Of a DNA stretch of 63,168 bases, positions 2,041 to 3,505 are shown piece by piece. The stretch's first letter is position 1. Each line of letters opens with the position of its first letter. The notes below the pieces were generated by a model. It saw only the letters and a list, made by a program, of their open reading frames with translations. It searched no databases and was not told the DNA's origin. The stretch comes from Anaeromyxobacter sp. (GTDB taxonomy: Bacteria; Myxococcota; Myxococcia; Myxococcales; Anaeromyxobacteraceae): positions 1 to 63,168 of the forward strand of contig JANYBC010000228.1 of the NCBI GenBank assembly GCA_025360965.1. Reading direction: 5' to 3'. The position numbers were made by a program, and so were the translations under genes.

Positions 2041-3081
2041 CTACATCCTGGCCTCGAAGTACTCGAAGGCGTCAATGATGTCGAGGTAGGTCCCGTCGAA
2101 GCCGGCGTCGAGGATCCTCTTCAGGTAGGAGGCGTCGTTCCCGAAGATGATCGCCTGCCAGGCCGGGTCCCAGTAGCGGACCTTGTAGTTCCCCGGCCAG
2201 TCGGGATTGGCCTTCTCGAGCCAGGGCGGCGGGAAGAGCCTCCATCTGGCGTCCCAGTAGAAGCGATAGCTCTCGGCCTCGCCGATGCTCATGTAGGCGA
2301 TCACCAGGCGCGAGCCGCCGCCCGGCTTGGTCCGGAGCGTGGCGATCTCGGCCGCCGTGAAGGGGACCTGCCCGAGGTCGACGTCGTCGAAGTAGAGGTC
2401 GATGACGAAGGCGTCGTAGCTGGTCGCCGCCAGCGCGGCCAGGAAGCCGGCCTTGGTGGCGTACATGACGCTGGAGTTGAGCAGGTAGAGGAAGTTCTTC
2501 GCCCCGGCCAGCTTGGTGACGTCGCTGGTGTTGACCGACATGGGAGCCGTGGGGGCGGGGTAGCCGGGGATCCGGTCCAGCTCCCGGCTGTCGGCGGCGA
2601 AGGAGGTGTACCCCCTGGCCAGGTTCCTGGCGTAGGAGTCGTCGACGTTGGCCCTGGTCGAGCAGTAGTCGGTCACCAGGGGCAGGACGCCGCCGGCCTT
2701 TGCGACGTCCATGTAGAGGATGATCTTGTCGCGCGTGTCGGCGGCCGTCGCGACGTCATCGGTCACGTACCCGTAGAAGAGATCCTCGCGGCCGACACCG
2801 TCGATGGCGGCCAGGTAGGTGGAGTCCGGCGGGCTGGTGGGGGCCCCGTCGGTGGTCACCAGTTCGTGGCCGTTCTGGGGGATGACGATGAAGCCCGGCT
2901 TGAGGCCGCGCGCGTAGGCGCTGATCCCCTGGACGAACGCGCGCATCTGCTGCTTGTAGACGGTGTTCCCGGTCGTCGAAGGATCGACGCCGGGCGGGTC
3001 GGTGGCGGCCCCGCCGCCGCAGGACCAGGAGACGGCAAGGCAGAGCAGGCTTGCAGCGAGGACCACCGAACGCCGCTTCAT
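2041..3081 (-). CDS. MJ1477/TM1410-type putative glycoside hydrolase lipoprotein, halves in permuted order
   Basis: Secreted lipoprotein (346 residues; signal peptide with Cys21 after SWS) related to the TM1410/GH114-like TIM barrels proposed to act on polysaccharides such as polygalactosamine. Known members, for example Thermotoga TM1410, run: YxLQN and VIDY strands, then GQAEDYRFYW, WPGNY, YLDxIDxFEYW, and only then EYVRxxxPD, IPQNG, ENLFY. Here the later half comes first (SAYARGLKPGF at 54-64, PQNG 68-71, REDLFY 98-103, SRELD 165-169). A linker of about 20 residues follows, then the former N-terminal half (FLYLLNSS 197-204, VIDLYFDD 226-233, GEAESYRFYW 267-276, WPGNYKVRYW 295-304, YLDIIDAFEYF 332-342), ending exactly at the usual mid-point. 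ATG 3081 is chosen for the signal peptide and its GAGGGGG ribosome-binding site. Confidence 0.85.
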   Translation of the reverse strand: MKRRSVVLAASLLCLAVSWSCGGGAATDPPGVDPSTTGNTVYKQQMRAFVQGISAYARGLKPGFIVIPQNGHELVTTDGAPTSPPDSTYLAAIDGVGREDLFYGYVTDDVATAADTRDKIILYMDVAKAGGVLPLVTDYCSTRANVDDSYARNLARGYTSFAADSRELDRIPGYPAPTAPMSVNTSDVTKLAGAKNFLYLLNSSVMYATKAGFLAALAATSYDAFVIDLYFDDVDLGQVPFTAAEIATLRTKPGGGSRLVIAYMSIGEAESYRFYWDARWRLFPPPWLEKANPDWPGNYKVRYWDPAWQAIIFGNDASYLKRILDAGFDGTYLDIIDAFEYFEARM

Positions 3082-3148: not shown

Positions 3149-3505
3149 TCAGACCAGCAGGCCGATGATGGTGGCGGCAACCAGCAGGAAGGCCAGCACC
3201 ACCTTGACCACGCTGCCGACCAGGTAGCCGACCAGGGTGCCGGCGCCGGCCTGCAGCGCCTTCTTCAGGTTCGGGTCCTTCCAGAGCTCCAGCGCCGTGG
3301 CGGCCCAGTCGGCGGCCACGATGAGGAGGGCCAGCACCCCGGTGACCGAGAGGGTCGGCGCGCCGATCAGCCCGAAGTCCCCCGCCCAGGCGATCAACCA
3401 GACGCCACCCCAGAGCAGCAGCGCGCCGGGTAGCACCGGCACCACGACGCCAGCCAGGCCGGCCAGCAACGCCAGGGCGCCGAGCAGGTAGAGGAGGGCG
3501 CTCAC
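3149..3505 (-). CDS. DUF456 family membrane protein, internally shortened
   Basis: Small integral membrane protein (118 residues) of unknown function. The N-terminal glycine-rich helix with GVVVPVLPGALLL and the C-terminal GYLVGSVVKVVLAFLLV are both typical of DUF456. The family is normally about 160 residues; the central pair of glycine-rich segments that usually lies between the ADW motif and the (E/L)LWxxxxLxxAxxAG segment is missing here, with the frame kept. GTG 3505 is the start of the open frame; no clear ribosome-binding site is visible. Its stop is 67 bases before the permuted lipoprotein, so the two may be co-transcribed. Confidence 0.7.
   Translation of the reverse strand: MSALLYLLGALALLAGLAGVVVPVLPGALLLWGGVWLIAWAGDFGLIGAPTLSVTGVLALLIVAADWAATALELWKDPNLKKALQAGAGTLVGYLVGSVVKVVLAFLLVAATIIGLLV

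Follow-up and report, generated by a model that had tools for sequence, protein, structure and literature searches.

A circularly permuted GH191-like glycoside hydrolase in Anaeromyxobacter and other bacteria

Results

Does a TIM barrel enzyme occur in nature with its two halves exchanged, and if so, how might the exchange have arisen and what would such an enzyme act on? These questions are raised by a gene on the minus strand (positions 2041 to 3081) of a 63,168-nucleotide stretch of Anaeromyxobacter sp. DNA (GenBank assembly GCA_025360965.1, contig JANYBC010000228.1), referred to below as the window. The gene encodes 346 amino acids plus a stop codon. A sequence-only reading had proposed that its product is a natural circular permutation of a TM1410/GH114-like barrel, with the normally C-terminal half placed before the normally N-terminal one.

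The protein contains a TM1410-type (GH191) barrel whose two halves have changed places. Using HMMER, the NCBIfam model TIGR01370 (MJ1477/TM1410) matched it in two swapped stretches with 181.5 bits, against a cut-off of 181.25, and the best stretch placed residues 207 to 342 on profile positions 50 to 175. The same exchange was seen against the TM1410 chains of the Protein Data Bank (PDB), where residues 219 to 342 aligned with chain positions 25 to 138 and residues 44 to 81 with positions 151 to 188. A relative in standard order, L019, aligned with these chains in a single collinear stretch of 259 residues, which bears out the reference order assumed for TM1410. The GH114 profile PF03537 was matched by residues 231 to 340 over positions 21 to 119 of 231 only, and the two halves gave no collinear match to the known family. 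All of the named landmark motifs are present in the claimed order, those of the old C-terminal half being YARGLKPGF, IPQNG, GREDLFYG, and SRELD. Chance motif order was considered and ruled out, since half-domain hidden Markov models (HMMs) yielded E values of about 1e-50 or better.

The chain begins with the old C-terminal half (alpha4-beta5-beta6-beta7-beta8; residues 42 to 172, positions 2566 to 2958, minus strand like all features of the gene), detected by its half-domain HMM with an E value of 3e-50. It is followed by the join of the old C terminus to the old N terminus (residues 173 to 195, positions 2497 to 2565) and by the old N-terminal half (beta1-alpha1-beta2-alpha2-beta3-insertion-alpha3-beta4; residues 196 to 344, positions 2050 to 2496; E value, 8e-61). 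The join had been taken for a Pro/Ser/Thr linker of about 20 residues. Its length (about 20 to 23 residues) agrees with that description, but because the length is nearly constant in 109 homologues, with a mode of 23, the join is more than a featureless linker. The chain was also said to end directly after the FEYF motif; it ends close by, 4 residues further on. At the level of family sequence similarity the protein belongs to GH191/TIGR01370. It departs from the beta1-to-beta8 chain order of TmGH191, which is no formal CAZy criterion, and on account of the swapped order we file it as a permuted derivative rather than an ordinary GH191 member.

An AlphaFold2 model of the protein, built with 46 permuted homologues, is a closed barrel (pLDDT, 90.4; pTM, 0.88). 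Its first half comprises alpha4 (residues 38 to 60), beta5 (65 to 69), beta6 (95 to 99), beta7 (133 to 139), and beta8 (159 to 163). After the join come beta1 (198 to 200), beta2 (224 to 227), beta3 (259 to 265), an insertion, beta4 (330 to 334), and a short helix (338 to 344). The control model of L019 contains the same elements in the standard order, running from beta1 (3 to 6) to beta4 (121 to 125, ending in D125) and the short helix (129 to 135), and then from alpha4 (141 to 159) through beta6 (186 to 190, ending in E190) to beta8 (250 to 254). Foldseek, an aligner bound to chain order, found only 151 alignable columns between the permuted model and TmGH191 (37% identity; TMt, 0.43), whereas L019 matched GH191 entries over about 280 columns (TM, 0.85 to 0.91) and was collinear with both PelA (TMt, 0.81) and Ega3 (TMt, 0.75). 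A half match for the permuted protein and a full match for the control are what circular permutation predicts.

In TmGH191, Asp156 is the putative nucleophile, Glu225 the putative acid/base, and Trp121 lies at the tip of a loop over the active site (PMC12054363). Counting along the 9EUX chain, these residues fall in YLD, VENLFY, and WPGNY, and their aligned equivalents in the window protein are D334 (codon at positions 2080 to 2082), E99 (2785 to 2787), and W295 (2197 to 2199), respectively. In silico, the predicted barrel places E99 and D334 at the ends of beta6 and beta4, matching the acid/base and the nucleophile of TmGH191. W295, in WPGNY, forms the aromatic tip of the beta3 insertion, where the model has extra strands at residues 268 to 270, 288 to 291, and 298 to 301. 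The glutamate is present in 109 of 109 permuted and 68 of 68 standard proteins, the aspartate in all 107 readable permuted and all 68 standard proteins, and a tryptophan or tyrosine occupies the loop tip in 107 of the 109 permuted ones. Permuted proteins with the invariant pair include some that are only 34 to 41% identical to that of the window.

Order was assigned by half-domain HMMs to the open reading frames (ORFs) of the fetched loci, 109 of which proved permuted and 68 standard; relatives in the standard order are thus at hand. Permuted genes were carried by 55 of 393 Bacteroidales genomes (about 14%; 5 standard), 34 of 296 Spirochaetota (about 11%; 2 standard), 15 of 68 Hydrogenedentota (about 22%; 0 standard; two of the 15 cut by contig ends), 3 of 195 Myxococcota (32 standard), 2 of 392 Planctomycetota (20 standard), and one genome of Poribacteria. 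The Planctomycetota, Spirochaetota, and Bacteroidales samples were evenly drawn subsets, and for some matches outside the fetched loci the order was deduced from which part of the query they covered. The order is also permuted in records of Fusobacterium vincentii and Cetobacterium somerae, and these Fusobacteriota members score 135 to 140 bits with TIGR01370, under the cut-off. The permuted order and the cut site in the beta4-alpha4 loop are common to about 110 genomes. Nearly all permuted proteins end within a few residues of beta4; the Hydrogenedentota fragment L100 (genome G594), located at a contig end, continues for about 440 residues past the barrel.

No match was found in any of the three genomes of the same genus or in any genome of the same family that was searched, so the window lineage is likely to have acquired the permuted gene horizontally. 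A phage origin was discarded, there being no phage match, as was a plasmid origin, matches in plasmid collections being few and mostly on large replicons.

Trees were computed from columns re-ordered to the standard arrangement and are unrooted. Support for the main permuted clade was 99/98, rising to 99/99 once Fusobacteriota were included. Two permuted proteins, L009 from a planctomycete and L175 from a member of the Bacteroidales (G1234), lie at the border with the standard proteins. Their joins read LTFAPGHLPSPNESPMEWSDVAEWAVQLQ and LTINQGHEPEEKTILRFDDVQSFLYYIQ, respectively. The segments LTINQGHEP... and LTFAPGHLP... compare with the standard tails LIINPGHEPD and MTVNAGWDPQ, and the standard start is VNDFLYQLQ. 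In these joins the old tail thus runs head to tail into the first strand of the old order, the arrangement that fusion of two copies, or of the ends, would leave, and they represent a fossil of the end-joining. Joins of the main clade keep the near-constant length (mode, 23) noted above. The cut site corresponds to the loop that leads from the short helix behind beta4 to alpha4, a loop of 5 to 28 residues in standard proteins. Tandem-duplicate intermediates (B-A-B-A) were absent among the fetched ORFs. On a Deinococcus aquaticus plasmid (L203:2012-3822), two genes for related barrel glycosidases follow each other head to tail with a 19-base overlap, the kind of arrangement that could yield a permuted fusion.

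Residues 1 to 21 of the window protein (positions 3019 to 3081) form a candidate signal sequence ending at a possible lipobox cysteine, C21, as suggested by the sequence itself and by a lipobox trend across the family. A strict lipobox test was passed by 64 of the 109 permuted proteins, with a spacer of 6 to 23 residues (median, about 11) separating the cysteine from the domain start. In standard lipoproteins the anchor lies either 13 to 32 or more than 200 residues before beta1. The lipoprotein export signal of Bacteroidetes has an acidic motif. Under a looser lipobox test, 50 of 54 permuted proteins from Bacteroidales passed, and 28 of these 50 have at least two acidic residues just past the cysteine, a resemblance to the export signal described for Bacteroidetes lipoproteins (PMC5080379).

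Among Spirochaetota, pelF (NF038011) was present in 10 of 34 permuted carriers, compared with 6 of the 262 remaining genomes (Fisher P = 5e-7, a guide only, as the genomes are related). One permuted spirochaete subclade, which an earlier tree had shown already, had pelF in 9 of 9 genomes versus 1 of 25 other carriers, a contrast drawn after seeing the result, and three of its loci have DUF2194 or pelF within a few kb. The permuted gene of Cetobacterium is followed by genes for GAF, DUF2194, and a hypothetical protein and by pelF and pelG. Around most permuted loci, pel genes are absent to a distance of about 9 kb, and the permuted genes of L005 to L009 share no neighbor at the Pfam level. A general operon partner was rejected, Pel linkage being confined to the one spirochaete subclade and Cetobacterium. 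The window genome, called 100% complete, lacks pelF, and the gene does not qualify as a Pel accessory hydrolase there. The Cetobacterium run is a Pel-type operon on a Cetobacterium somerae plasmid (L202:5950-12846); DUF2194, which is also found near permuted GH191 genes in the spirochaete loci L240, L242, and L261, may be a counterpart of the PelA deacetylase. One ORF of Hydrogenedentota (L103, G634:C19) combines a Mep72-like metzincin/reprolysin protease domain with a permuted GH191.

The window ORF starts with the ATG at position 3081, and GAGGGGG, resembling a ribosome-binding site, stands immediately 5' of it. Its immediate neighbors encode GTP cyclohydrolase II and DUF456. A second copy of the permuted gene in the window genome (L192:1292-1838, G000:C20; about 89% DNA identity) is decayed: it stops early and has internal deletions, two of which coincide with short repeats. 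Its order is permuted and its neighbor is DUF456, as in the window; it may be a genuine duplicate, or its contig may stem from a closely related organism sharing the bin. Compared with the C20 copy, the DUF456 gene of the window (positions 3149 to 3505, minus strand) has about 123 bases fewer, in frame, and the alignments overlap where it breaks off, pointing to loss between short direct repeats. Its best stretch covers only Pfam positions 1 to 53 of 139.

Discussion

Sequence and model together indicate that the window protein is very likely a secreted, probably lipid-anchored GH191-type glycoside hydrolase (alpha-1,4-galactosaminidase fold) that is circularly permuted, starting at alpha4 and ending just past beta4, with a join of about 23 residues. 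Some observations weigh against parts of this account. The lipobox of the window protein, SWSC, is non-consensus. TmGH191 had neither activity nor binding on galactosaminogalactan (PMC12054363). Outside the spirochaetes, pelF is missing from the window genome and from 25 of the 26 other permuted carriers sampled, so the substrate cannot be narrowed down to Pel. Finally, with no root to the tree and unstable positions for L009 and L175, one origin and two are hard to tell apart.

The window belongs to a 259-contig metagenome assembly, in which pieces of a standard gene could have been wrongly joined through local misassembly or binning. Such an artifact is excluded, because full-length homologues with identical order and cut site exist in about 110 other genomes of six phyla, several of the genes sitting on contigs of 2.0 to 3.5 Mb; the two Fusobacteriota records show the same order, and the decayed second copy retains it. 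The proposal of a natural circular permutation thus came through each of the comparisons that could have overturned it. The standard order is most simply ancestral, since GH166 and GH114 both have it. From there, the permutation would have arisen once, possibly twice, when either two tandem copies of a standard gene or its ends were fused; a new start and stop would then have been placed in the length-variable beta4-alpha4 loop, and horizontal transfer would have spread the permuted gene across phyla. Several independent permutations at this loop, in the main clade, L009, and L175, are a real possibility, if not the one we would expect. L009 is closest to the standard proteins L010 and L019 (58% identity), and both careful trees put it on the standard side. 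L175 lies outside the main clade, and the variation of the loop in standard proteins suggests that it tolerates cuts. However, a single clade of all permuted rows was not rejected by the approximately unbiased (AU) test (log likelihood 0.51 lower; p-AU, 0.473), and the tree from a second sampling needs only two changes, with one sufficing in 10% of bootstrap trees.

As to function, Env-GH191 hydrolyzes Pel (PMC12054363), and the permuted enzyme may likewise endo-hydrolyze an alpha-1,4-linked, galactosamine-rich, Pel-like exopolysaccharide. It is distinctly unlikely that the permuted proteins are inactive, binding-only (lectin-like) GH191 derivatives. The behavior of TmGH191 on galactosaminogalactan would fit such a role, as would the position of the nucleophile, now 12 residues before the C terminus, where the loop was cut. 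In a dead enzyme, however, loss of the catalytic pair would be expected, and the pair, like the loop-tip aromatic residue, is kept across divergent proteins. Where spirochaetes and Fusobacteriota have a pel locus, the permuted enzyme may act on the cell's own Pel, and in a coculture of F. nucleatum a gene annotated as endo alpha-1,4 polygalactosaminidase, possibly the permuted one, was downregulated together with pelF and pelG (PMC9848294). These associations would favor the window enzyme also cutting its own cell's Pel, in the role of a stand-alone PelA hydrolase domain, but this is unlikely given the missing pelF, there and in nearly all sampled carriers outside the spirochaetes, and the GTP cyclohydrolase II and DUF456 neighbors of the gene. 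Without pelF in its genome, the window enzyme is best read as cutting polymers of other organisms, probably galactosamine-rich polymers of its neighbors.

The permutation may also have changed how the enzyme is held at the membrane. In a TIM barrel, the N termini of the helices lie at the catalytic face, and topology therefore suggests that permuting the chain would bring the anchor there: the anchor of a standard lipoprotein would enter at beta1, at the barrel bottom, and that of a permuted one at alpha4, on the catalytic face, via a tether of about 6 to 18 residues. One may speculate, with considerable doubt, that the permutation was selected because it turned the anchored enzyme over, so that the active site faces its own cell surface (its own Pel or a cell-bound polymer) and not outward. 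If true, this would be an enduring example of a membrane-anchored enzyme re-oriented by circular permutation.

The permuted GH191 branch is real, widespread, and apparently undescribed. The paper on GH191 does not mention permutation (PMC12054363), and a literature search, with CAZy and subscription journals outside its scope and prior notice therefore possible, found no paper linking the GH191/TM1410 family with it. Few natural circular permutations of TIM barrel enzymes are known to have grown into large, wide families. This one is common, has its catalytic pair intact, and has standard relatives close enough for direct comparison, while the junction of its basal members still shows the way in which the ends came together. 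Only half of such a protein is detected by linear profiles and by structure searches bound to chain order, so that family scores fall at the borderline or below the cut-off and misannotation is easy. The carriers include a human oral Fusobacterium, and this occurrence, together with the position beside Pel biofilm genes in spirochaetes and Cetobacterium, bears on matrix trimming by these bacteria.

Compared with known systems, the window protein is most like GH191/TIGR01370 (TM1410, TmGH191, and Env-GH191, PDB 9EP5), with which it shares the catalytic Asp and Glu, the beta3 insertion with its aromatic tip, and the predicted barrel; its old N-terminal half is 59% identical to that of the standard protein L010, and identity to TmGH191 is 37% over half the chain. 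It differs in running from alpha4 to beta8 and then from beta1 to beta4, with the beta4-alpha4 loop cut and lost and the old ends joined. GH166 (PelA hydrolase domain, PDB 5TCB) and GH114 (Ega3) have the same barrel and catalytic pair, but both are in the standard order, and neither is nearer to the window protein than GH191 is. GH70 glucansucrases are permuted relatives of GH13 alpha-amylases. They belong to an unrelated family with another cut site and substrate, but they too represent a natural circular permutation of a glycoside hydrolase TIM barrel that founded a lasting family.
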